25,723 bases of DNA, from IMG/VR virus record IMGVR_UViG_3300021598_000396, positions 1-25,723 of that record; one strand, 5' to 3'. Origin of the DNA: a virus. A model generated the notes under the pieces. That model was not told the origin of the DNA. It ran no database searches and was given only the letters and a program-made list of their open reading frames with translations. The translations under genes were made by a program, and so were the position numbers. Numbering within the stretch: the stretch's first letter is position 1; each line of letters starts with the position of its first letter. Below, one piece after another: positions 1,624 to 13,446 of the stretch.

Positions 1624-4600
1624 ATGGCAGATGTAAACTCTAATATTAATATTAATTTTAATACAGATGCCGCCCTTGCACAACTTCGTTTACTTCAGGC
1701 AGGCCTCAGCAGGTTTCATCAATCACTTGCTGAGGGCAACCTGGCTGCTGCAAATGCACAAAAAGGTTTAAACGCTCAACTACTACAATCTATTGGTGCT
1801 ACAGGAAAGTTTTCTGCAAGTCAAGTTAAGGTAGCAGGAAGTACACTTGCATTTACTTCTGCCTTAGAAAAAAATAAATTATCTCTTCGTGAGTACTATC
1901 GATACACAATGGCAGCAGCAACTGCCAATACCCGTGTTCTTGGAAAAGCCTTTGCAGCAGAAAGAGAAATTATAAACCGTGCTCGCCGAGACAGAGTAAA
2001 GGCTTTACAGGCACAATACATCCAAATGAATAAGTCCAATGCTGGATTTATGGATGCAATTAAGATTATGCCAAAAAGTCTTGCGATGGCAAATGGTAAA
2101 TTTACTGAACTTGGAACAAGAATTCAGTATGCTGCACAAAGACAGCAGTTCTTAAATCAGTTACTTAAGCAGGGATCTACACAACTCCTGAACTTCGGTA
2201 AGAATACTCAGTGGGCTGGTCGTCAGTTAATGGTTGGTCTTACAATGCCACTTGCATTATTTGGTGGTATGGCTGCAAAGACATTCAGAGAACTTGAAGC
2301 AGAGATCGTAAAGTTTAAGCGTGTTTATGGAGACGCATTTACTAATGATTCAGAAACAGATGCAGCAGTTAATAATATTAGAAGATTAGCAAGCGAATAT
2401 ACAAAGTATGGCGTTTCTGTAACAAAGACTGTTGAAATGGCAGCAACTGCTGCTGCAGCAGGTTTTACAGGAGCAGCATTAAATGCTCAAGTTGAAACAG
2501 CAACAAAGTTATCAGTTCTTGGTCAAGTTGAACAACAGCAAGCACTTGAAACAACTATTTCTTTACAGAGTGCTTTTGGTCTTTCAAGTGAAGAACTTGC
2601 AAAGAAAATTGATTTTCTTAACGCAGTAGAAAACCAGACACTTTTATCGATTGAAGATTTAACAGTTGCTATTCCAAAAGCAGCGCCAGTAATTAAACAA
2701 CTTGGTGGATCTGTAGAAGATCTTGCATTCTTTATGACTGCAATGAAAGAAGGCGGAATCAATGCATCAGAAGGCGCTAACGCACTAAAGTCTGGTCTCG
2801 CATCTTTAATTAATCCATCTGATAAGGCAGCAAAGTTTCTTGGAAACTTGGGCATTAACATTAAGTCAATTGTTGATCAAAACAGTGGAGATATCAAAGC
2901 AACTGTTGTTGGTTTTGCACAAGCACTTGATAAATTGGATCCACTTAACCGTGCACGTGCAATTGAGCAGATGTTTGGTAAATTCCAGTTTGCACGTCTA
3001 TCAACATTATTCCAAAATGTTACAAAAGATGGTACTCAGGCATCTAGAGCACTTGGTTTAGCAGGAGCATCAATAGAAGAATTAGCAATTCTCTCTGAGC
3101 GAGAAATGAAAAAAATTGAAGATTCCGTAGGTGTAAAATTCCAGGCAGCGGTAGAACAATTTAAGCAAGAGATTATGCCACTAGGAAAAATATTCTTAGA
3201 AGCGCTAACTCCAGTTGTTAAATTTTTTGGATCACTATTTGAAAAGTTTAATGGACTAAGTGATCAGACTAAAAAGGTTATTGCAGTTATTGTTGGAGTA
3301 GTTGCAGGCCTTGGTCCAGTTCTTTTGATGACCTTTGGTTTACTTGCAAATGGTGTTGCAAATGCTATTAAATTCTTTGCACTTCTTCGTGGAGGAATAG
3401 CAAGACTAAACGGACAGACAAATGTTTTGGGTGCAGGGTTTAACTATATGACACAAGAGCAGATAGAAAATGCTGCTTCATCACAATCTTTGCATCAAAC
3501 TCACACAAGATTAATAGAAGTATTTAACGTTGAAAAAGCATCTGTTAATGCACTTGCTTCATCTTATAATTTTCTTAGTACACAAATGCGAGCAATGGCA
3601 TCTCAAAACCCTGCACTATTTGCTGGGGGAGCACCAGGAGCAACATCAGCAGTACGAGGGCTACCTCCAGTTAGAAGGTATAAAGATGGAATTTTAACTG
3701 TACCAGGTCCAAAGGGTGCAGGAGATATTCAACCTGCAATGCTTGCTCCAGGTGAAGCAGTTATTCCAGCAAAGACTACTGAAAAATATAAAGGTTTGAT
3801 TAGTGCAATATTTAATGATAAGGTTCCAGGATTTATGGCTGGCAGAATTCCTGCTGGTCCTGCTAAGTATTCCACCAATGACTTGATAATGCAAAGGATA
3901 AAGCGTTCTACTTACCCTGGCACACATCCAGAAAAACAGTCTGGTCCTCAGTTTGTTGGAATGCCAAAGTCTGCTGAACAAGCATCTCAGTCAAGACAGA
4001 TAGTAGAAAAAATAGCGCAGCAAGCAAGTCTTGGAAGGTTTGGAACTTTGCCTCCTTCAGACTTTGGAACATTATTACAACCATTTTCTGGAAGAAGTTT
4101 CCCTGTGCGAGGAGTCGGCGGAATATATAGAAAGCCCAATGGAGAAATCGTAGTAGTAAAACCAACAATGGATGAAAGAACTGCTTTAGCAGAAGTTCGT
4201 GCTACTGAGATTGCTAGAGAAGTTCATGGATTAATTGCGCCAAAACAAAGCATTAGAACAATGATTGATCCAACAGATCCTTCAGGACAAAGAAAGTTTG
4301 TTGTTGTTGAGTCTCCGTATGATCCAAGAATTGCGGCAATGGATGGCAAGTTCTCTAGATCTGACATGATTAAGCAATTAGTTGCGTCAACACTAAGAGG
4401 AGACAGAGACTTACAACAGGCAAACCTATCTGGAAATGTATTGGCAGATGTTGGAACTGCTGGAGTATTTGATAGAGCATCTGGCTTTAGGGATTTTGCT
4501 AAGACAATGCCAAGCATGGAAGAGCAAGCAGTTGTTAACCTTCTTGGAGTAAAGGGTGGAGCAAAGAAGTTCTTTGCACAAGAAACATCATCTCTTGCAG

Positions 4601-7600
4601 CAAGCATGACTCCAGCACAATATGACACAGCAATAAAAACAGAAATCTCTAAGTCTATTCCTAGACTAAAAAGTCTTATTAAATCTTGGGAGGGGGCTCT
4701 AGACCCAGAAGAACTAGTTGTATATAACAACATGCTTGAAAGACTTGAGGCTGGAAAAAGAACACACTGGGACAAACTTCAACCAATTCATGCTCGTGCT
4801 GGAGAAGGTATTAAAAAAGCAATAGTAGGAATTGATCCAGCAGCGCTTAGCCCTGAAATAAGAGAACAAGTTGGCAGATATATTACAGGATCAGGCACAC
4901 AACAACAGTCAATCATAGATGAATTAAAACTTGATGCTAAAAATCAGTTTGCATCAAGACTTGTAGATTTAGAATTGAGTGATCCACAAAGAGCGTCAGT
5001 CGTAAAAGCAGCATGGCAAGGTGGCAGTGCTGAGATTCCTCCATCAATGAGAAACCAAGGGTTTACTTCACCAAGACAATCAACTTTCTTAAATCACATT
5101 CAAAGCATGACTCCAGTAACGATTGACGGAGTAACCAGATATATTGCTGATGTTGACATGGAAAGATTTTTATCAAATCCAGATGTTGAAGCACCTAGAC
5201 TTGCAAGAACAAAAGAAGAAGTTCTTAATAAACTTTTATATAGAATGGGTACTATTAAAAAGAATGGAAGATTTGTTGCTAGTAACAAGTTTACGGGAAA
5301 GTTTGCTAATCCATCCGACTTTTTAACAGATCTAAGAGTAGGTGGAAAAGAGTCTGGTAGTTGGAAGGGCAATGCTAAAAAAGAATTTAGAAAACCTTTA
5401 AGGGCTGCAGAAAAGGCTTACAATACTGAATACACTGATGAAAGATATTTAAAGATGATGACTGATGCTGGATTATCAGCAGAAGAGGCAAGAATAGAAC
5501 TAAAAGCAGAACTATCTCACAGAGCAAAAACTGGAGCACCAGGAAGAGGACCTGAAAAATGGTTAAGAGGAACTGGATTTTTTGATTCATTAATAGTCAA
5601 TAGGTATATGAACTCTGAAAAACGTCTTTCAAGCCTATTACAATGGAATAAGGATAATGGATACTCTGTAATTCCAAAAGACGGAATTGATAAATATTAC
5701 GAGGCTGCTTCTTTTATGAGAAAACGTCAACATCCATCAACTGCTCATGAAGCATCTCTTGTTGCATTAGCAGCAGAAGCAGACTTACTAGCACTGGATA
5801 ACCCAACAGTTCCAAGTGACAAAAAGACAGGATATAGTAGAGAAAAATTAATTGCCATGCGCTCATTACTTGCTGATAAAGCAGGAAGAGGTTTCTACGA
5901 GTCTGCAACTAGATATAACTTTGGAGCAGGAAATCTTAAGGGTCTTGTTTTAGCAAAACTCGGAGAGTATATATATGATAGACCTAAGCAAGTTTTAGAA
6001 GAAATAACACAAAAAAATAGCAAAAGGGCTGGGAGAAAAGTAAAACCAGATAATGGCAAGCCATCAGATAATAGAGTTGTAAAAGAGGGTCAGGGAAGGT
6101 CGGTAGTTACAAAGTCTCAAGCAGGAAGAATTGCTGGAGGCAGAGGAGTTGTGGTACTTCCTGCAAGAGACAAGGGAGATCCAACATTAGATTTACAATC
6201 AACAAGAAGAGGTCCATCATCAGATGGATTAAGTAAGGTAGCACAAAGAAGGATTAATGCTGGGCTTATTCAGAAAGCAAATTTATTAAGAAAAGACAAT
6301 AGATTAACTGAAACTCAGATTCAAAGAGCAATTGAAAAAATAAGAATGCAAAGAACTGAGGCTGAAATTACAAAAGCAAGAGTTCACCAAGAAAGAATGG
6401 CTCTTAATGAGGCTAAGAAAAATCCTCCTCAAACAGCAAGACAAGCACGTAAGGCTGAACAACAACAAAAAAGAATGGCTCGTCAACAAAAAATAGGTGG
6501 TGTGTCAGGTGGCTTAGCAATGGGTCTTGGAATGGCTGGATCAGCCATGATGATGTCTGGCAATCAAACAGGTGGTATGACATTAATGGGTGCATCTGCA
6601 GTAGCAGGTCTTGCTCCAATGCTTACCGATCCAAAAGGAGCAATTGTTGCAGGACTTCTTGCAGTTGCAGGAGCAGTTTATGCCTTTAATGCTGCTATGA
6701 AGAAGGCTAGAGAAGAAGGTATTGCTCTGGCTAACTCAATGTCTATGACTAATAAAAAATTAATTGAATTGTCTCAAATTACTAAAACAGTTTCCGCAAG
6801 TGAAGCAGCAGATAAAAAGAGGCAGGATAGGCTTTCTGGAGCAACAGAAAAACAGCGCAAGGTTGGACAAACAATATTAGATTCCGAGTTTGGGAAATCA
6901 TTACTTGCAGATGTAGATACACAAGCAAAAGCAGGAATGTCAAGTAAAGAAGTTGGTCAAAATATTGGAGTTCAACTATCCAGTGCAATGCTTAGTGGTG
7001 TCATAACTTCAGAACAAGCAAGAAGCCTGGCGATGGCTTTAGGTAATGAGTTAAAAGATTACCCTCTATCTGCAAGTGTAGTTGGAGAAATTATTCGAAT
7101 AACAGGACCTAATGGAGAAAATATTGAAAAAGATCCAATCAAGGTTGCTTTAGATATTGATAAAAAAACATTCCAAACTTCTAAAAAGATGATTGATTTT
7201 GCAGCAAAGCAAGATTTTACAAAATCTTTTACTGGCAAAGGAGGAACTTTTGAAAATGCAAACAATGCTTTGTCTGGGAAAAAGGGAATAGTTCAAGCAG
7301 GTTTAGCAAACGTAAACCCATATATTTATCAAGACTTCTTTGATCCAAAAAAGAGTGGTTTAGACAAGACCCTATCAATTGTTTCTTTTGGATTAACATC
7401 AGCATTCTTCCAAATTAGAGATGCTAATGCACAAACAAATAAAATTAGAACTGCAGGCGCACAATTAATGATTCAAGAGTTGCAAAATAATCAGCAACTA
7501 ATAGACTCAATAAATAAACAATATGATATTAAACTAAAGACTGCAAAAACTGAAAAAGAAATTCAAGGAATTGAAGGAGAACGCAAGGATGCCCTAGATG

Positions 7601-10600
7601 CCTTAAACAAACAAAATCAGGACCAACTAAAGACTATCCTAGCATCTAAGGATGCAATTGGAGATACTGCTTTCAACGCTGCTATTAGAGGTGCAGCAAA
7701 CGAACTATACAAAAAGGGACCTTTAGCAGAATTAAAAAATGTAGCACTTGACCAACTAGAATCGCTTAGCAATAGCACATTCAAAACACAGATGCAATTA
7801 GATTTTGCAAGTGGAAACCTTGACCCAATGACATTGATTGAATTACTTAACAATCCAAATTATCAATCATCCTGGACTCTTTTAGTTGAAACTACTTTGG
7901 GTGGTAATACTGCTGAAGCAGCAGTTATTTCGCAACTACTATCAAAGGCTGGCTTAAGTACTGAATCAAAAGTTATTGTTATTGACTTATTAAATAATCA
8001 AGGAGATAAGTATACTAATGAAGAGATAACATCAGCAGTTGACATATTGTCTAAAATACAAGAAACTTATGGCATTAACTTGGATGTTAATACAAACAGT
8101 ATGTCAAAGGTTCAAAGAATTTCAGATATGATTAAAGCCCTCAAGGGAAAAAAAGGCTTAACAAAAATTGAATTAGAGGCTATAGCCAAAGAAGATCCAA
8201 GATATAAATATATTATTGATAACTGGGAAACCTTAGTTGGAGATGGAACAACAATCTCAAGAACACTGCTACTTAACGTTGAAACATTGGTAACTGATAA
8301 AAATGTTCTTGATGCTTATTTACAGGCTGCTGGAACCGACGCAGAAAGATCTGCAGTTAATGCATCTCGCATGGGTTTGCCAGCACTTGGCTTGCCGCAA
8401 ATAAATGAAAAGGCTGCAATCTGGGCAGCAGACCCTAAAAATGCAGCAAAACTAAAAGCATTAGGTCTTGGTAACGGAAATTCAACTGGTAACGGAACAA
8501 AGACAGATCCACTTGATTTCCTAAAGCCATTAGCAATGGATCTAAAGCAGGTAAAAGATAATGCATTTAATGCACTTAAACCTGTAGAGTCACTTCTTGC
8601 AGCATTTACAAATAAAAAAACACAGAAGGATGCTTTTAATTTATTTGATGGCATACAAAATAGACTTTTAAGATTTGGTGCAGGTAAAGGACTTAGAGAC
8701 GCTGTATCTTCAATGTCTGCAGAAGACTTTGACAAGATTGCAAAACTAGAAGGTAAGAAAGCACTATTTACCTTTGCAAAGGGCAAGCCAAGGTCAAAAG
8801 ATACAATAACTGGGCTAACTGAGACTGGCGAGGCCGTTGACCAAGGGTATATGCAAAGAGACCTTGGTAATTTTAATCTTATCAATGAAGAAACAATAAA
8901 AAACATACAAGACCAAACCAAGGCTTACAATATCTTAATTAGCAGTGGTCTTTCAGCAGGCCAAGCCTTAGAGGTTGTTTCAGACCAAAGCCAAGCAGCA
9001 GCCATTGCTGCGGGGGCAATTTCAAAATCTGACCCTAACTGGAATAAATATATTAGTAACATAAAGACTTCTAACACAGCACTTGAACGTCAAGCAGTTT
9101 TGAATAAAGCAATTCGTGAAAATGAAGACTTTAAGATATACAAGGAAATGCCAAAACTTGTTTCTCAAATGAAGGGGCTAGGCTACAGTACTGATCAAAT
9201 TGATGCAGTTCTTGGTGATCCAGAACTTGCAAAGTTTATGATAGATGATTTAAAGGCTGGCAAGTTACTCTCTAAGGATATTGCAGACTATCTAAACTCA
9301 ATTGAAGAGCGCAAGATAATTGATATTCAATCTAACTTTAACGCTGGAGAATATTCAGAATCTGCTCAGCCAGGATTTGACGCTTTAGATGAAATATTTG
9401 CTGTTAAAGAAAGACTTTTAAGAACTGGTGTAGATGAAAGAACAACTTCTATAGTTGACGAAATGAACAAGAATGAGATAGCAATTCGAGATGCAGAAGC
9501 ATCTGCAATACCATTTAGAGAAAAGATTGAGGAGATCAATCGTGCAATTACAAAAGATCAAAGAGCAATTGAAGAAAAATACACAAGACCAATTGAAGAT
9601 TTAAGTGAACAGGTTAATGATCTAAACCGTGAATTAGAGATGAATCCACTATTTGGTGATCGTGCTATACAAAGTATTCAAGATGAAAATAGTGCTTTGT
9701 CTAATGATTTAACGCTTATCTCAAATGCTGCTGATGAAGTTAATAAAAGATATGACGAACAAGCCGATGCCCTTGAAAAAGTTTCTGAGATCAATCAAAA
9801 TATTTTAGATCAACAAAAGCAACAACTTGATTTAGCAGATGCAATAACATCTGGAGATATATCTGCAGCAGCCCGTGCTGTACAAGAAATAAGAGCAGGA
9901 AACGCTGCAAGGTTTGCCGATGCTCAAAGTAAGGCTTTACAGCAGGCAAGAGAAAATGAACTTAGTTCTTTAACTGCTAGACCAGGTGGTTTAACTCAAG
10001 AGCAGATAAACAAGAAGCAGTTTGAGAATTCACAAAGAATTTATGCAATGGAAAACGATCCAGCAAGAATTGCAATATTAAAACAAATTCGAGACAAGCA
10101 AGATGACATTTATAACAAAGAAGAAGAGCGTGAAAAAGCACTTGATGCAATTAGAGTTCAAGAAGACAAAATAAATAAAATTCAAGTTGAGAACCTTAAT
10201 CCACTAGAAGAGACAATTTCAAAACTAACTTATAGAAATTCTGTGATTCAAACAACAATAGACAAACTTGTAGCAGAACAAACAGAATTAGGTAAAACAC
10301 AGAAAGAGTGGGATGCAATAAAGTCAAAGATAGATGCCGACGCTCTTGCAGCAAAAGATTTTGATAAGGAACTTGGAGCACTGCTTGCTTCTACTACAGC
10401 AATAGACAATAAGTGGAAAGACATTCTTACCAAGTTATCAACATACAGCACAACTTCAAAAGAAGTAATTGACGAAAAAAAGAAAATTGAAGACAAAGCC
10501 AAAGCAGATAAGGCAGAGGCTGCTAGACTTGCAGCAGAAGCAGCAGAAGCAGCAATGCTTGCAGCAGAAGCAGCCAGAGTTGCAGCAGCCTTGCGTAAGG

Positions 10601-13446
10601 CTAAACCTGGTCAAGCAGTTGCAACATTTGCTTCAGGTGGATTTGTTCCAAGTGTTTTTGAATCTGGAGGGTATGCAAAGGGAACTGATACAGTCCCAGC
10701 AATGCTTACACCAGGAGAATATGTCTTAAGAAAAGATGCAGTAAAGAGATATGGCGTTAAGAATCTTGACGCAATGAATGTTGGAATGTATTCAGATGGT
10801 GGAGAGGTTTCTAAGTTTGGGTCAAGACCAAAGTATGGAACTAAACCTGAAACAAAGGATAACTGGTTTACAAGTTACATTCAGAGACTAACAAAATCTC
10901 AAGAAGATGCAGGAAAGATGATTCCATCATTTATGAGAATGAATGGAAAAGCAGATGCTTTGGGGGCAGGATCAGTATTAAGGCAACTAACTGGGCAAGG
11001 CCAAGCAGGAGATAAATTTGCTGCTGCACTATTCCCACTAAACTTCCTTGGTATAGGAAAGATTGGTAAAGAAGGAATACAGGCAGGATCTCCAATAATA
11101 AAAAAATCTTCAGGAATTTTATCAAAGATTTTTGCAAATATTTCAGAAGCAAGAAATTGGGTTCACTATGCTCACAAGTCACCAGACGAGTTACTTCCTA
11201 GTATAGGTAGACCAACTGATGCAATGCATCAGTATGGACCTGGTACATATGGATCAACAACAGGTACCTTTATGGGAGATACATTTGGAACAGAAGCACA
11301 CACACTTAGTTTATCCCCACTTGCTTGGATTAAAACTGCTTTAGGAAAAGGAGCAATTGATGATGCTCAATTAGCAGTAGAAGCAGCAAAATTAGGTATA
11401 GATCCTAAAGCAACTATAACAGATGATTTTGCAAAACTACTACAAGCCCAGGGATACTCTGGATATAAGACTGACGATATTGTTACAAATTGGAATGTTG
11501 GATCTCCAGGTTTTGGATTAAAGAATTCCCAAGGCAAAATTCCTTTTGGAAAGGTTGCTCCTTCAGCCCCTGTTCCTAAGCCTGGGAAATTTGATCCTAC
11601 TCTAATTATGGCTCAAGGTGGCTTAGTTCCAAATTACTTTGCAAATGGCGGAGAAGTTCCAGGACCTCCAACTACAGGAAGATTTCTTGAATCGCCTTAT
11701 GATACTACAAAAAGAGAGTATCAAGAACAAAATAAAAAAACAATAAAAATTTCAATTCCTCCAATCAGAGCCAACTTTAACACAAACTCTTTTAAACTAA
11801 ACAAAAAACAAAAACAAGAACTTGATAGTCTTGCAAAGGAAATTGCCAAGCATAAATTAAAATCACTTGTAGTTCAAGGCCATGCTGACTCAAGAGGTGG
11901 AGTAGATAATGATTTGCTTTCACTAAATAGAGCAAAAGCAACAGCACAATATTTGTCTAAACTTGTGCCAGAAACTGCGTTTGTTCCAGTAGGTCATGGT
12001 GTTTATAAGCCACTTGTTCCAAATACAAGTCCAGAAAACATGGCTCAAAATAGAAGAGCAGAAGTATTTTTACCAGATACATATAAAACAACTTACCCAG
12101 AGTATAAGCCTGAAAACCATAGATATGAAATTATTGGTGGGGGATCAATATTACCTACCGATGGAGCACTTAGTGGTGGAACAATGCTATCTAACAAGGG
12201 CACACTTACTGGTGGAACAATGGACCCAACTGGATCAATGTCCTCTGGAATAGATTTTGGTAAACTTTTTAGCAAGTTAGGAAGTTTGTTTGGAAAGGAC
12301 GATAGAGAAGTAAAAAATTTACGTGGTGGTTCTGGAAATGTGTTATTAAAGTCAAAAGGCGGACTAATTCCAAGTTACTTTGCTGCTGGTGGAAAAGTTG
12401 ACAAATCTAAAATTGGCAGATTATTTAGTAGTATTTTAAACCCAATAGGGCTAGTTGGTAAAGGCATGGGCTTAGGACTAAATATACTTAACAGAATAGA
12501 TTCATATAGAAAAAATAAAGATTTAAAGACAAGTGGCGATGGTACCAAATGGATGGAAAAGAAAACACTTAACCCAAATGCTGAAACAATATATGTTTAT
12601 GATATGGCTAATCGTTTTAATTCAAAAGACCGTTCCCCAATTGTTAATCAAGGACTTCAGTATTTGACAGGACAAACTGGTGTTCAATTTAAGAGAGCAA
12701 CATTTGGAATGAGAAACGATCCAGATGTAATTAAGATAAATTGGGCAGATAGCAAGCGGCTTGCCGAACAAGGTGTTGCGGGAGATGCTGTTGCTGGATC
12801 TAGAGAGATTAACCTTACTTCTCCAAGAGGACTTAACTTGGGTACCCAAAACAGAGCAGGTGGAGCACGTGTAGTAGCGCACGAAATTCTTCATTCTTTA
12901 AACATTGGTGAATACGATGCACCTTATGGAATTCGCCAGAATACTACTGCTTTCTTTGGACATGCAAAAAATCCTTTTAATATAATGTTTCCAATTGGGG
13001 GTATGACTCCAGCCTTTATTAGTAAATCAGATACAGAACAATTAAGAAACCTTGTAGGTTATTATAACTATGAAACTAAGCCTATTTCTAAAGAAAGTAT
13101 ACCTAAGAGCAGTTTAGCACCACTACCTTTAGATATTGGTATTGATAAAAAAACTGGTAGACTAATTCCAAAGCACTTTGCTGCTGGTGGATATGCAATG
13201 GGAACCGACACAGTTCCAGCGATGCTAACTCCAGGAGAATTTGTTATGAGTAAATATGCTGTTCAATCATATGGAACAGACACAATGAAGGCAATAAATT
13301 CTGGCTCATCAGTTGGGGATTCAGTGTATAATTATAACCTTAACTTAAATGTAAAGTCTGATGCCAATCCAGATGAGATTGCAAGAGCAGTTATGGTACA
13401 AATAAAGAGCGTAGATGCTCAAAGAATTAGGGGGACTAGAATCTAA
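1624..13446 (+). CDS. Giant modular tape measure protein (3940 aa)
   Basis: The tape measure protein fills the growing tail tube, sets its length and leaves the tail first at infection. Start ATG 1624 follows AAAAGGGG (1606-1613). Residues about 95-480 look like the conserved tape measure core (TFRELEAEIVKFKRVYGD near 220; GGINASEGANALKSGLASL near 377). Hydrophobic segments lie near 551-580, 1624-1646 and 1672-1690, and could be membrane-inserting. A PAMLAPGE motif (704-711) precedes a kinase-like region (about 825-955). About 1400-1620 is basic and probably disordered. About 2630-3000 is coiled coil ending in an Ala/Glu-rich stretch. The C-terminal 940 residues carry four PxxFxxGG motifs bounding an ART-like candidate, an OmpA-like domain and an HExxH metalloprotease candidate. 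At 3940 residues it is exceptionally long. A fully helical chain would span close to 590 nm, but the globular modules mean the real tail should be shorter. The main identity is secure; the modules are graded separately. Confidence 0.95.
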   Translation: MADVNSNININFNTDAALAQLRLLQAGLSRFHQSLAEGNLAAANAQKGLNAQLLQSIGATGKFSASQVKVAGSTLAFTSALEKNKLSLREYYRYTMAAATANTRVLGKAFAAEREIINRARRDRVKALQAQYIQMNKSNAGFMDAIKIMPKSLAMANGKFTELGTRIQYAAQRQQFLNQLLKQGSTQLLNFGKNTQWAGRQLMVGLTMPLALFGGMAAKTFRELEAEIVKFKRVYGDAFTNDSETDAAVNNIRRLASEYTKYGVSVTKTVEMAATAAAAGFTGAALNAQVETATKLSVLGQVEQQQALETTISLQSAFGLSSEELAKKIDFLNAVENQTLLSIEDLTVAIPKAAPVIKQLGGSVEDLAFFMTAMKEGGINASEGANALKSGLASLINPSDKAAKFLGNLGINIKSIVDQNSGDIKATVVGFAQALDKLDPLNRARAIEQMFGKFQFARLSTLFQNVTKDGTQASRALGLAGASIEELAILSEREMKKIEDSVGVKFQAAVEQFKQEIMPLGKIFLEALTPVVKFFGSLFEKFNGLSDQTKKVIAVIVGVVAGLGPVLLMTFGLLANGVANAIKFFALLRGGIARLNGQTNVLGAGFNYMTQEQIENAASSQSLHQTHTRLIEVFNVEKASVNALASSYNFLSTQMRAMASQNPALFAGGAPGATSAVRGLPPVRRYKDGILTVPGPKGAGDIQPAMLAPGEAVIPAKTTEKYKGLISAIFNDKVPGFMAGRIPAGPAKYSTNDLIMQRIKRSTYPGTHPEKQSGPQFVGMPKSAEQASQSRQIVEKIAQQASLGRFGTLPPSDFGTLLQPFSGRSFPVRGVGGIYRKPNGEIVVVKPTMDERTALAEVRATEIAREVHGLIAPKQSIRTMIDPTDPSGQRKFVVVESPYDPRIAAMDGKFSRSDMIKQLVASTLRGDRDLQQANLSGNVLADVGTAGVFDRASGFRDFAKTMPSMEEQAVVNLLGVKGGAKKFFAQETSSLAASMTPAQYDTAIKTEISKSIPRLKSLIKSWEGALDPEELVVYNNMLERLEAGKRTHWDKLQPIHARAGEGIKKAIVGIDPAALSPEIREQVGRYITGSGTQQQSIIDELKLDAKNQFASRLVDLELSDPQRASVVKAAWQGGSAEIPPSMRNQGFTSPRQSTFLNHIQSMTPVTIDGVTRYIADVDMERFLSNPDVEAPRLARTKEEVLNKLLYRMGTIKKNGRFVASNKFTGKFANPSDFLTDLRVGGKESGSWKGNAKKEFRKPLRAAEKAYNTEYTDERYLKMMTDAGLSAEEARIELKAELSHRAKTGAPGRGPEKWLRGTGFFDSLIVNRYMNSEKRLSSLLQWNKDNGYSVIPKDGIDKYYEAASFMRKRQHPSTAHEASLVALAAEADLLALDNPTVPSDKKTGYSREKLIAMRSLLADKAGRGFYESATRYNFGAGNLKGLVLAKLGEYIYDRPKQVLEEITQKNSKRAGRKVKPDNGKPSDNRVVKEGQGRSVVTKSQAGRIAGGRGVVVLPARDKGDPTLDLQSTRRGPSSDGLSKVAQRRINAGLIQKANLLRKDNRLTETQIQRAIEKIRMQRTEAEITKARVHQERMALNEAKKNPPQTARQARKAEQQQKRMARQQKIGGVSGGLAMGLGMAGSAMMMSGNQTGGMTLMGASAVAGLAPMLTDPKGAIVAGLLAVAGAVYAFNAAMKKAREEGIALANSMSMTNKKLIELSQITKTVSASEAADKKRQDRLSGATEKQRKVGQTILDSEFGKSLLADVDTQAKAGMSSKEVGQNIGVQLSSAMLSGVITSEQARSLAMALGNELKDYPLSASVVGEIIRITGPNGENIEKDPIKVALDIDKKTFQTSKKMIDFAAKQDFTKSFTGKGGTFENANNALSGKKGIVQAGLANVNPYIYQDFFDPKKSGLDKTLSIVSFGLTSAFFQIRDANAQTNKIRTAGAQLMIQELQNNQQLIDSINKQYDIKLKTAKTEKEIQGIEGERKDALDALNKQNQDQLKTILASKDAIGDTAFNAAIRGAANELYKKGPLAELKNVALDQLESLSNSTFKTQMQLDFASGNLDPMTLIELLNNPNYQSSWTLLVETTLGGNTAEAAVISQLLSKAGLSTESKVIVIDLLNNQGDKYTNEEITSAVDILSKIQETYGINLDVNTNSMSKVQRISDMIKALKGKKGLTKIELEAIAKEDPRYKYIIDNWETLVGDGTTISRTLLLNVETLVTDKNVLDAYLQAAGTDAERSAVNASRMGLPALGLPQINEKAAIWAADPKNAAKLKALGLGNGNSTGNGTKTDPLDFLKPLAMDLKQVKDNAFNALKPVESLLAAFTNKKTQKDAFNLFDGIQNRLLRFGAGKGLRDAVSSMSAEDFDKIAKLEGKKALFTFAKGKPRSKDTITGLTETGEAVDQGYMQRDLGNFNLINEETIKNIQDQTKAYNILISSGLSAGQALEVVSDQSQAAAIAAGAISKSDPNWNKYISNIKTSNTALERQAVLNKAIRENEDFKIYKEMPKLVSQMKGLGYSTDQIDAVLGDPELAKFMIDDLKAGKLLSKDIADYLNSIEERKIIDIQSNFNAGEYSESAQPGFDALDEIFAVKERLLRTGVDERTTSIVDEMNKNEIAIRDAEASAIPFREKIEEINRAITKDQRAIEEKYTRPIEDLSEQVNDLNRELEMNPLFGDRAIQSIQDENSALSNDLTLISNAADEVNKRYDEQADALEKVSEINQNILDQQKQQLDLADAITSGDISAAARAVQEIRAGNAARFADAQSKALQQARENELSSLTARPGGLTQEQINKKQFENSQRIYAMENDPARIAILKQIRDKQDDIYNKEEEREKALDAIRVQEDKINKIQVENLNPLEETISKLTYRNSVIQTTIDKLVAEQTELGKTQKEWDAIKSKIDADALAAKDFDKELGALLASTTAIDNKWKDILTKLSTYSTTSKEVIDEKKKIEDKAKADKAEAARLAAEAAEAAMLAAEAARVAAALRKAKPGQAVATFASGGFVPSVFESGGYAKGTDTVPAMLTPGEYVLRKDAVKRYGVKNLDAMNVGMYSDGGEVSKFGSRPKYGTKPETKDNWFTSYIQRLTKSQEDAGKMIPSFMRMNGKADALGAGSVLRQLTGQGQAGDKFAAALFPLNFLGIGKIGKEGIQAGSPIIKKSSGILSKIFANISEARNWVHYAHKSPDELLPSIGRPTDAMHQYGPGTYGSTTGTFMGDTFGTEAHTLSLSPLAWIKTALGKGAIDDAQLAVEAAKLGIDPKATITDDFAKLLQAQGYSGYKTDDIVTNWNVGSPGFGLKNSQGKIPFGKVAPSAPVPKPGKFDPTLIMAQGGLVPNYFANGGEVPGPPTTGRFLESPYDTTKREYQEQNKKTIKISIPPIRANFNTNSFKLNKKQKQELDSLAKEIAKHKLKSLVVQGHADSRGGVDNDLLSLNRAKATAQYLSKLVPETAFVPVGHGVYKPLVPNTSPENMAQNRRAEVFLPDTYKTTYPEYKPENHRYEIIGGGSILPTDGALSGGTMLSNKGTLTGGTMDPTGSMSSGIDFGKLFSKLGSLFGKDDREVKNLRGGSGNVLLKSKGGLIPSYFAAGGKVDKSKIGRLFSSILNPIGLVGKGMGLGLNILNRIDSYRKNKDLKTSGDGTKWMEKKTLNPNAETIYVYDMANRFNSKDRSPIVNQGLQYLTGQTGVQFKRATFGMRNDPDVIKINWADSKRLAEQGVAGDAVAGSREINLTSPRGLNLGTQNRAGGARVVAHEILHSLNIGEYDAPYGIRQNTTAFFGHAKNPFNIMFPIGGMTPAFISKSDTEQLRNLVGYYNYETKPISKESIPKSSLAPLPLDIGIDKKTGRLIPKHFAAGGYAMGTDTVPAMLTPGEFVMSKYAVQSYGTDTMKAINSGSSVGDSVYNYNLNLNVKSDANPDEIARAVMVQIKSVDAQRIRGTRI
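3721..3762 (+). repeat. PAMLAPGE motif in tape measure (divergent copy 1)
   Basis: Residues 700-713 (GDIQPAMLAPGEAV) are a divergent copy of the TDTVPAMLTPGE(Y/F)V motif found again at residues 3021-3034 and 3861-3874. It lies just before the kinase-like region, separated by a short Pro/Gly-rich stretch containing FMAGRIPAG. Motifs of this kind recur in phage tape measure proteins, and their function is unknown to me. Confidence 0.6.
4096..4488 (+). other. Kinase-like (PI3K/HipA-type) candidate domain inside tape measure
   Basis: Residues about 825-955 show an ordered set of kinase-like signatures: a glycine-rich GVGGIYRKPNGE near 830-841, EIVVVKP with Lys 846, a helix with Glu 857 in LAEVRATEIARE, a GDRDLQQAN stretch (Asp 927, Asp 929, Asn 934) resembling the GDRHxxN catalytic loop of phosphatidylinositol-kinase-type enzymes, and VFDRAS with Asp 950 in the metal-binding position. 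The order and spacing fit that fold. The identification is by eye only, and the domain could be an inactive relative or a coincidence. Confidence 0.4.
10636..10725 (+). repeat. Tape measure motif pair: PSVFESGG + PAMLTPGEYV
   Basis: Residues 3005-3034 contain GGFVPSVFESGG followed directly by YAKGTDTVPAMLTPGEYV. The second half is nearly identical to residues 3857-3874 near the C-terminus, while the DNA of the two copies differs at many synonymous positions. They are therefore old, protein-selected repeats. This copy opens the C-terminal modular region after the coiled coil. Confidence 0.85.
11158..11523 (+). other. ADP-ribosyltransferase-like candidate module in tape measure
   Basis: Residues about 3179-3300, between two PxxFxxGG motifs, begin WVHYAHKSPDELLPS and continue with QYGPGTYGSTTG (GPGTY at 3205-3209), then, after a helical stretch, LLQAQGYSGYKTDD (from about 3273). 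An HYxxS-like opening, a GPGxY turn and a later GYxGY stretch are the general arrangement in some ADP-ribosyltransferase-fold domains. The match is weak and no catalytic glutamate can be named with confidence. It could equally be an unrelated phage module. Confidence 0.25.
11617..11652 (+). repeat. Tape measure PNYFANGG motif
   Basis: Residues 3332-3343 (GGLVPNYFANGG) are the second of four PxxFxxGG copies. This copy lies between the ART-like candidate and the OmpA-like domain. Confidence 0.8.
11743..12075 (+). other. OmpA-like peptidoglycan-binding domain inside tape measure
   Basis: Residues about 3374-3484 fit the OmpA C-terminal domain. There is an opening strand with FNTNSFKLN, a helix, VVQGHADSRGG (GHAD 3419-3422), LLSLNRAKATAQYL, a glycine-containing turn PVGHGVYKPLVPN, and NRRAEVFLP with NRR at 3476-3478. 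Asp 3422 and Arg 3436 sit where this family binds the diaminopimelate of peptidoglycan. Inference: the tape measure, or a released fragment, docks on the cell wall during DNA entry. Confidence 0.8.
12358..12393 (+). repeat. Tape measure PSYFAAGG motif
   Basis: Residues 3579-3590 (GGLIPSYFAAGG) are the third PxxFxxGG copy. This copy lies between the OmpA-like domain and the metalloprotease-like domain. Confidence 0.8.
12571..13071 (+). other. Matrixin-like HExxH metalloprotease candidate inside tape measure
   Basis: Residues about 3650-3816 contain VVAHEILHSLNIGEYD, with His 3753, Glu 3754 and His 3757 forming an HExxH zinc site. It is preceded by strands ending in SREINLTSP and followed by a Met-turn-like NIMFPIGGM (Met 3788) and SKSDTEQLRNLVGYY, similar to the closing helix of matrixin-type proteases. 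In that family the third zinc ligand is a His six residues after the second His; here that position is Glu 3763, with Asp 3765 and His 3780 as other candidates. Activity is thus plausible but not assured. Confidence 0.55.
13156..13245 (+). repeat. Tape measure motif pair: PKHFAAGG + PAMLTPGEFV
   Basis: Residues 3845-3874 contain GRLIPKHFAAGG followed by YAMGTDTVPAMLTPGEFV. This is the fourth PxxFxxGG copy and the third PAML(T/A)PGE copy. It closes the modular region, leaving about 66 residues to the C-terminus. Confidence 0.85.

Follow-up and report, generated by a model that had tools for sequence, protein, structure and literature searches.

Results

The window, by which we mean the whole 25,723-nucleotide stretch of viral DNA that was analysed, contains a tape measure protein (TMP) gene at positions 1624–13446 that encodes 3940 residues in a single open frame; this gene and all features described below lie on the + strand. 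It matches the PHROG family tail length tape measure (E 8e-94), and Pfam places a PhageMin_Tail domain at residues 259–452. Four PxxFxxGG motifs reported in an earlier note were found at exactly the residues claimed, specifically 3009–3016 (nt 10648–10671), 3336–3343 (11629–11652), 3583–3590 (12370–12393) and 3849–3856 (13168–13191). In shuffled versions of residues 2951–3900 the pattern occurred 0.024 times on average, with a maximum of 2, and 0 of 5000 shuffles reached four (the mean for whole-protein shuffles was 0.038). The PAMLTPGE copies said to flank the set and an earlier PAMLAPGE are likewise present, at residues 3025 and 3865 and at residue 704, respectively.

The four motifs are not equivalent. 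Motifs 1 and 4 open a complete unit of about 45 residues ending in PAMLTPGE, whereas motifs 2 and 3 are bare lead-ins that lack the PAML half. With the unit described as FxxGG...GTDTVPAMLTPGEFV...YG...N, an iterated HMM located an N-side unit containing PAMLAPGE at residues 685–732 (3676–3819; E 7.8e-18), a first C-side unit that forms the left edge of a cargo slot at residues 3011–3054 (10654–10785; E 6.2e-20), and a terminal unit that forms its right edge at residues 3851–3894 (13174–13305; E 1.1e-23). The conserved TMP C-terminus that follows (residues 3895–3940, 13306–13443) is kept with or without cargo. Across TMPs, 101 of 120 PxxaxxGG motifs are unit lead-ins, mostly in cargo-free proteins, and none of the 120 falls within a recognised module, where by the earlier note their random occurrence would have spoken against its reading. 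Because the unit is widespread even in TMPs that lack cargo, the suggestion that the motif is a cargo-specific cleavage or chaperone signal is unlikely, and the evidence favours conserved joints.

Between the first C-side and terminal units lie a preamble and three modules. The preamble (residues 3110–3146, 10951–11061) is shared with TMPs L014 and L155, where it leads into a different module, K2. Module A (residues ~3173–3301, 11140–11526) is a candidate ART-like domain on the basis of its conserved His and Tyr and weak fold matches. Specifically, the His is invariant in 15 sequences and GPG-Y nearly so, while the residue at the expected catalytic-acid position is variable. For an AlphaFold2 model (pLDDT 71, pTM 0.65), most of the top PDB matches are diphtheria/exotoxin A group ART toxins at non-significant E values, the best fold match of ART_A being weak (E 0.74, Z 5.3), and a viral-structure search ranked 'PolyVal ADP-ribosyltransferase' first, also without significance. 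Module B (residues 3385–3477, 11776–12054) is firmly assigned as an OmpA domain, with a Pfam match above cut-off (E 2.7e-12), matches to PDB entries for domains of the OmpA family (E 3.4e-10) and retention of GHADSRGG....LLSLNRA. Module C (residues 3599–3822, 12418–13089) is a putative zincin of metzincin-like type, an assignment that rests on its HExxH motif (HEILH, residues 3753–3757, 12880–12894), followed downstream by NIMFP, and on a match to Pfam Reprolysin_3 that is under cut-off (E 0.0025); its predicted structure is poor (pLDDT 38.9). Outside this slot, module K1 (residues 805–1070, 4036–4833) is kinase-like by motif only, with K43, E54, D124, D126, N131 and D139 invariant in 22 sequences; it matched nothing when searched against Pfam and PDB profiles and is missing from relatives L046 and L067. 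Of the domain identities proposed earlier, that of OmpA is firm, whereas the metalloprotease-like, ART-like and kinase-like modules are candidates.

Alignment of homologues, which the earlier note had called for, showed swapping of segments at the motifs and a domain content that is not fixed. Sixteen TMPs form a clade with N-terminal identity of at least 84.6%; among them, eight combinations of modules occur between the units, and some members have nothing there. L022 and L024 are 98.7% identical in their N-terminal parts, yet carry ART_2 and K2, respectively, as cargo. The ART_A of L026 is 94% identical to the L029 copy and 64% to that of L025, the cores of L025 and L026 being 99.6% identical. 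Module C recurs in the distant TMPs L164 and L166 (54% and 60–61% identity), between GG motifs but with other neighbours and with HEILH and the downstream NIMFP kept; the heads of these TMPs are 36% and 53% identical to that of the window. Ymod lies upstream of the enzyme in some TMPs and downstream in others, and ART_A occupies the N-side slot in L184. Slot contents across TMPs include ART-like, GNAT, kinase-like and HAD modules, the HAD assignment, like that of OmpA, being secure. Zincin-like modules are present in three TMPs, next to other cargo, and most cargo arrays are without one. No recognised cargo is seen in 64 of the 79 TMPs on the tree. The cargo modules are under purifying selection (dN/dS 0.06–0.49 in comparisons of ART_A, GNAT, K2 and ZIN_C). 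Searches of isolate phages for modules A, C and K2, and of bacterial genomes for modules A and C, found none.

The boundaries of exchange coincide with the units. Compared with L003, its nearest relative, the window loses DNA homology at the first unit (residue 3062) and regains it at residue 3846 (nt 13156), three residues before motif 4; between L025 and L026 homology restarts at the terminal unit, at 94.7% identity. Homology-block ends lie a median of 23 residues from a GG motif, against an expectation of 63.6 (the minimum over 200 draws was 55), in a test that counts pairs of related sequences as independent. At the DNA level, position-matched units are about 60–90% identical, and unbroken matches between them reach about 30 nt. 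In the clade, the first C-side unit starts only between residues 2997 and 3299, with or without cargo, despite total lengths of 3174–4076, which places the cargo outside the ruler. An immunity gene specific to the cargo was not found, and genes downstream in the window and L003 are collinear despite different cargo. In isolate Streptomyces phage relatives, segments after the unit resemble, by sequence motifs, a transglycosylase and an M23 peptidase.

Discussion

Near the tail-tip end of the TMP is a slot in which close relatives hold wholly different enzyme-like domains. We consider it probable that this swappable slot at repeated units holds cargo that is delivered to the host at infection. 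The slot lies downstream of the ruler region between two copies of the conserved unit, another slot follows the N-side unit, and whole cassettes, as well as modules within them, are exchanged at units and at the shorter GG lead-ins. The likeliest route would be homologous recombination between co-infecting phages, because of the DNA identity and identical runs that position-matched units share. The cargo would most likely be loaded in the tail along with the TMP, exit with it at infection, and act on the host envelope or cytoplasm just before or as DNA enters. The earlier proposal of interchangeable modules punctuated by motifs thus stands, while tail-packed effectors delivered with DNA would be a reading of TMP position and domain classes. 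The ART-like, zincin, GNAT, kinase-like and HAD phosphatase classes are known from injected phage proteins and are here accompanied by a peptidoglycan-binding OmpA domain; the catalysis and targets of the modules we infer. A consideration against delivery is that globular domains would need to fit, or unfold, inside the narrow tail lumen.

An alternative that we regard as rather unlikely is an envelope-penetration set, in which OmpA would tether the TMP to peptidoglycan after ejection and the metzincin would cleave proteins of the wall or surface. This would extend the role that murein hydrolases are known to play in TMPs, with no cytoplasmic action. It would fit the peptidoglycan-binding nature of OmpA and the motif retained in module B, the hydrolase-like segments of the Streptomyces relatives, and the documented TMP lysins (PMC10194240, PMC3314691). 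However, the ART-like, GNAT, kinase-like and HAD modules in the slot use cytosolic cofactors or are without an obvious wall role. Cleavage at the GG motifs by module C or a host protease, freeing separate effectors, is unlikely: zincin-like modules do adjoin other cargo, and polyvalent proteins have been proposed to be processed by their own zincins (PMC5512222), but most motifs are lead-ins of units, largely in TMPs without cargo, and most arrays lack a zincin. We find it improbable that the C-terminal part accepts any folded insert as a neutral spacer, exchanged without host-directed function; the many cargo-free TMPs would suit this, whereas dN/dS below 0.5, conserved active-site-like residues and domain classes matching those of injected proteins argue against it. 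Fusion of different phages by assemblers is scarcely credible, even though every cargo-bearing case is a metagenome contig and chimeras would form precisely at conserved units, as architectures repeat in independent samples (L003/L004; L026/L027; L030/L032/L033; the window and contig 3300021599_001088), frames are open and flanking genes are collinear.

With respect to known systems, a swappable cargo slot would have several partial counterparts. Some TMPs, such as those of TM4 and enterococcal phages, contain peptidoglycan hydrolase domains. These likewise place an enzyme domain within the TMP, as the Streptomyces relatives appear to, whereas the window-type slot accommodates numerous domain classes, most of which have no evident function at the wall, and its cargo is exchanged among close relatives. 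The polyvalent proteins found in phages and conjugative elements are likewise very long single polypeptides that combine several unrelated domains, with ART, kinase, GNAT and zincin-like metallopeptidase among the commonest classes (Iyer et al. 2017, PMC5512222). That text discusses head, portal and N4-RNA-polymerase proteins and not tape measure proteins; here, in contrast, the backbone is a TMP, the slot is edged by a repeated unit and swaps occur between near-identical backbones. No case of polyvalent-type cargo built on a TMP was found in the literature searched.

Sle1-type contractile-injection-system effectors, which are experimentally reconfigurable (Nagakubo et al. 2026, PMC13277306), share a TMP-like coiled-coil N-terminus and a variable functional C-terminus. 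They belong to actinobacterial injection machines, and the sections consulted do not describe their module boundaries as repeated units, whereas the window encodes phage tail and DNA replication genes; DUF4157 was not seen in the window ORFs scanned. Polymorphic toxins (PMC3482391) similarly combine a constant delivery part with a variable, exchangeable tip, but TMP cargo is enclosed by units instead of forming the very C-terminus, and it is not followed by a cargo-specific gene. Finally, shuffling of fragments across phages resembles the protein domain mosaicism surveyed by Smug et al. 2023 (PMC10684548), in which TMPs gave a mosaic signal and no recent case could be confirmed; the present TMP set supplies such cases.

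Repeat Unit of the Tape Measure Protein

The largest gene of the 25.7-kb virus window (1624–13446, plus strand) encodes a protein of 3940 residues that matches a tape measure protein (TMP) family in PHROG (E = 8e-94) as well as PhageMin_Tail (E = 2.8e-28), and a minor tail protein is encoded downstream. A TMP core domain within a tail gene cluster identifies it as a TMP. Upstream, two ORFs (499–1209 and 1262–1603) both match PHROG 10504 and occupy the usual place of the tail assembly chaperones. Within the TMP gene itself, 42–57 nt at window positions 2197–2253, encoding FGKNTQWAGRQLMVG, match the DNA of 35 Streptomyces phages at 90–98% identity, although the TMP heads of these phages are only ~28% identical to that of the window; conservation at the DNA level looks stronger here than expected.

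The four PxxFxxGG motifs that the earlier note had placed at residues 3009–3016, 3336–3343, 3583–3590, and 3849–3856 are indeed present, and their number is far above that expected by chance, which rules out a chance origin. The motif leads into a unit of ~45 residues, which was modelled by iterating an HMM from the terminal copies. Specifically, full copies were found on the N-side (residues 685–732), at the first C-side position (3011–3054), and at the terminal position (3851–3894), together with copies at residues 3336 and 3583 that consist of the lead-in only. Short TMPs carry one C-side unit at their end and long TMPs two or three. In the relaxed form PxxaxxGG (a = aromatic, H, L, or M), 101 of 120 motifs lead into a unit and 19 occur elsewhere. 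The proposal that the motifs mark module boundaries held up, as none of the 120 lies inside a recognised module; random placement within domains is thereby ruled out. A cargo-specific processing signal is disfavoured because the motif is also present in TMPs without cargo. Separately, the unit may also mark cargo in cyanomyoviruses: in a virion protein of a Synechococcus phage (locus L190, 6210–9074; annotated as lysozyme), a copy stands immediately ahead of the lysozyme-like region.

Cargo Exchange among Related Phages

Homologues were collected from viral contigs using the TMP N-terminus (80 loci) and the terminal unit (another 80); a search with the metzincin-like module C added two new loci, and one with the ART-like module A (ART_A) added further loci. 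Among 51 long TMPs compared, window residues 1 to ~2990 align throughout most relatives, the OmpA and zincin segments are missing from all the others, and module A is matched by a minority. This comparison, along with a quick tree of 79 TMP N-termini in which cargo labels depend on the profiles used, rules out a fixed domain content. The window's nearest relatives by N-terminus, L003 (91.3% identical), L014 (89.9%), and L077 (87.5%), each have different cargo, and a clade of 16 rows (at least 84.6% identity) holds eight cargo architectures plus none, which bears out the suggestion that segments are swapped between phages. Cargo even differs within the pairs L022/L024 (98.7% identical) and L025/L026 (99.6%), and the ART_A of L026 is 94% identical to that of L029 and only 64% to that of L025.

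This cargo was catalogued by searching 130 non-redundant TMP ORFs with profiles. Between units, the window has ART_A–OmpA–zincin; other arrangements are ART_A alone, Ymod–ART_A, ART_A–Ymod, Ymod–ART_2, Ymod–K2, a GNAT-like module followed by a unit and K2, K2 alone, X alone, zincin–Ymod–second zincin–ART_2 (L164), and small–ART_3–zincin (L166). Ymod, a 102-aa module lacking a database match (L017, L021, L022, L024, L026, L089, and L164), precedes the enzyme in some TMPs and follows it in others. In L164, the second zincin-like module (HETMHHFD) and the ART_2-like module lie at ~11168–11830, placing four cargo modules in a row. Apart from the window, the OmpA module (B) was found only in the near-twin contig 3300021599_001088 (L001 and L002), where the TMP frame is broken into ORFs of 2200 and 1729 aa by a frameshift or an assembly error. 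The N-side slot is also variable, since the kinase-like module K1 is missing from L046 and L067 (TMP residues ~730–1100). In L184 this slot (7600–10600) reads K1–HAD–unit–ART_A; its kinase-like, HAD phosphatase-like, and ART-like modules lie between units that nearly repeat each other (81% identical in DNA, with a run of 23 nt) and are possibly a recent unit duplication.

Modules also recur in distant TMPs. Module C is 54% (L164) and 60–61% (L166) identical to that of the window and is bracketed by GG motifs in both, although the TMP heads are only 36% and 53% identical, respectively, and the coils ~22%. With respect to the route of exchange, unit 1 of the window and unit 1 of L155 share 90% DNA identity (run of 30 nt), versus 67% (run of 10) for two C-side units of one protein; this higher likeness of position-matched units would fit recombination at matching units over fresh duplication. 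A preamble at window positions 10951–11061, also present in L014 and L155, precedes ART_A in the window and K2 in the other two, which suggests exchange inside cassettes as well. The modules are under purifying selection that is looser than that on the TMP core.

The breakpoints lie close to the motifs. DNA homology between the window and L003 is collinear to residue 1244 and continues in blocks through the core, the last of which before the cargo falls in the first unit (3016–3062); none extends across the cargo, and identity is 84.9% from residue 3846 on, through the downstream genes. The 740 homology-block ends, which are not independent of one another, lie at a median of 23 residues from a GG motif, compared to 63.6 for random positions, and 39% of them, versus 18.7%, fall within 15 residues.

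Identity of the Cargo Modules

Module B is firmly an OmpA-like domain (Pfam OmpA, 47.3–51 bits against a gathering score of 27.2, with PDB matches as well), and the HAD module has a Pfam match above cut-off; all other module names are tentative. The module alignments contained 3–22 sequences. Modules A, C, and K1 had no credible match to PDB sequence profiles. When an AlphaFold2 model of module A (15 sequences; pLDDT 71, pTM 0.65) was compared with the PDB, the leading matches were largely chains of diphtheria toxin, cholix, exotoxin A, and PARP14, and one ejection protein from a cyanophage was also among them. These fold matches are weak, and their E-values are not significant (best Foldseek E 0.74, Z 5.3); the best viral-structure (BFVD) match, a PolyVal ADP-ribosyltransferase, was likewise not significant (E 0.61). 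Across the 15 sequences, the H of an H-Y-E ADP-ribosyltransferase is invariant and the Y nearly so, and the catalytic acid, D or E at neighbouring columns, is placed without confidence. We therefore tentatively term module A ART-like and claim no activity for it.

Module C, tentatively zincin- or metzincin-like, reads HEILHSLNIGE in the window, HEILHSLGIGD in L164, and HEILHALNIGD in L166 (metzincin pattern HExxHxxGxx(H/D)); the three sequences share HExxH and an NxMFP resembling a Met-turn. Its Pfam match, Reprolysin_3, fell below cut-off, and structure prediction of module C with its unit yielded no usable model. K1 is tentatively kinase-like: it has invariant Lys, Glu, Asp, Asn, and Asp spaced as in a kinase and no kinase family match in Pfam or PDB profiles. 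The GNAT module of L149 has a Pfam match just below cut-off, and ART_2, ART_3, K2, and the L013/L014 GNAT were named from sequence motifs, without Pfam support. Modules A (queried via L026), C, and K2 were not found in isolate phages, nor were A and C found in bacterial genomes.

Known Systems and Implications for Delivery

In the clade, the first C-side unit starts at 2997–3299 with or without cargo after it, which places the cargo outside the ruler. The nearest cultured relatives are isolate Streptomyces phages, in which the region after the unit resembles a transglycosylase and an M23 peptidase by sequence; the cargo slot as such is thus probably old, and what stands out is how broadly and quickly its contents are exchanged.

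The window cargo belongs to the same domain classes as polyvalent proteins, among which the zincin-like metallopeptidase is the commonest domain (PMC5512222). Like those proteins, the window TMP joins at least two functionally unrelated domains in one polypeptide, firmly so for the TMP core and OmpA and tentatively for the ART-like, zincin-like, and kinase-like modules. Unlike polymorphic toxin systems, in which the immunity gene adjoins the toxin, the window has no cargo-specific immunity gene, because the downstream genes are common to the window and L003 despite their different cargo. Among the window ORFs scanned, none encoded the DUF4157 partner that accompanies a Sle1-type effector in a contractile injection system (CIS) cluster. 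TMP cargo of this kind is not described in the open-access papers searched, and it may have been described elsewhere; the closest are PMC5512222, PMC13277306, and PMC10684548.

Given its location in the TMP, the cargo is likely delivered into the host with this protein. Whether the TMP of free-living phages is a combinatorial effector rack strikes us as an evenly balanced proposition: the unit would be a universal joint exchanging ART, protease, acetyltransferase, kinase, phosphatase, and wall-binding modules between distant phages, so that the first-strike proteins of each phage, entering together with its DNA or before it, would change rapidly. A large survey suspected domain exchange in TMPs but could not confirm recent cases (PMC10684548); the present set contains clear cases, together with the joints where exchange happens. 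Should the cargo prove to be delivered, early anti-host enzymes would have a carrier in the TMP as well as in head and portal proteins, the passage of folded domains through the narrow tail lumen would become a structural question, and cargo in unannotated phage genomes could be sought simply by the sequence of the unit.
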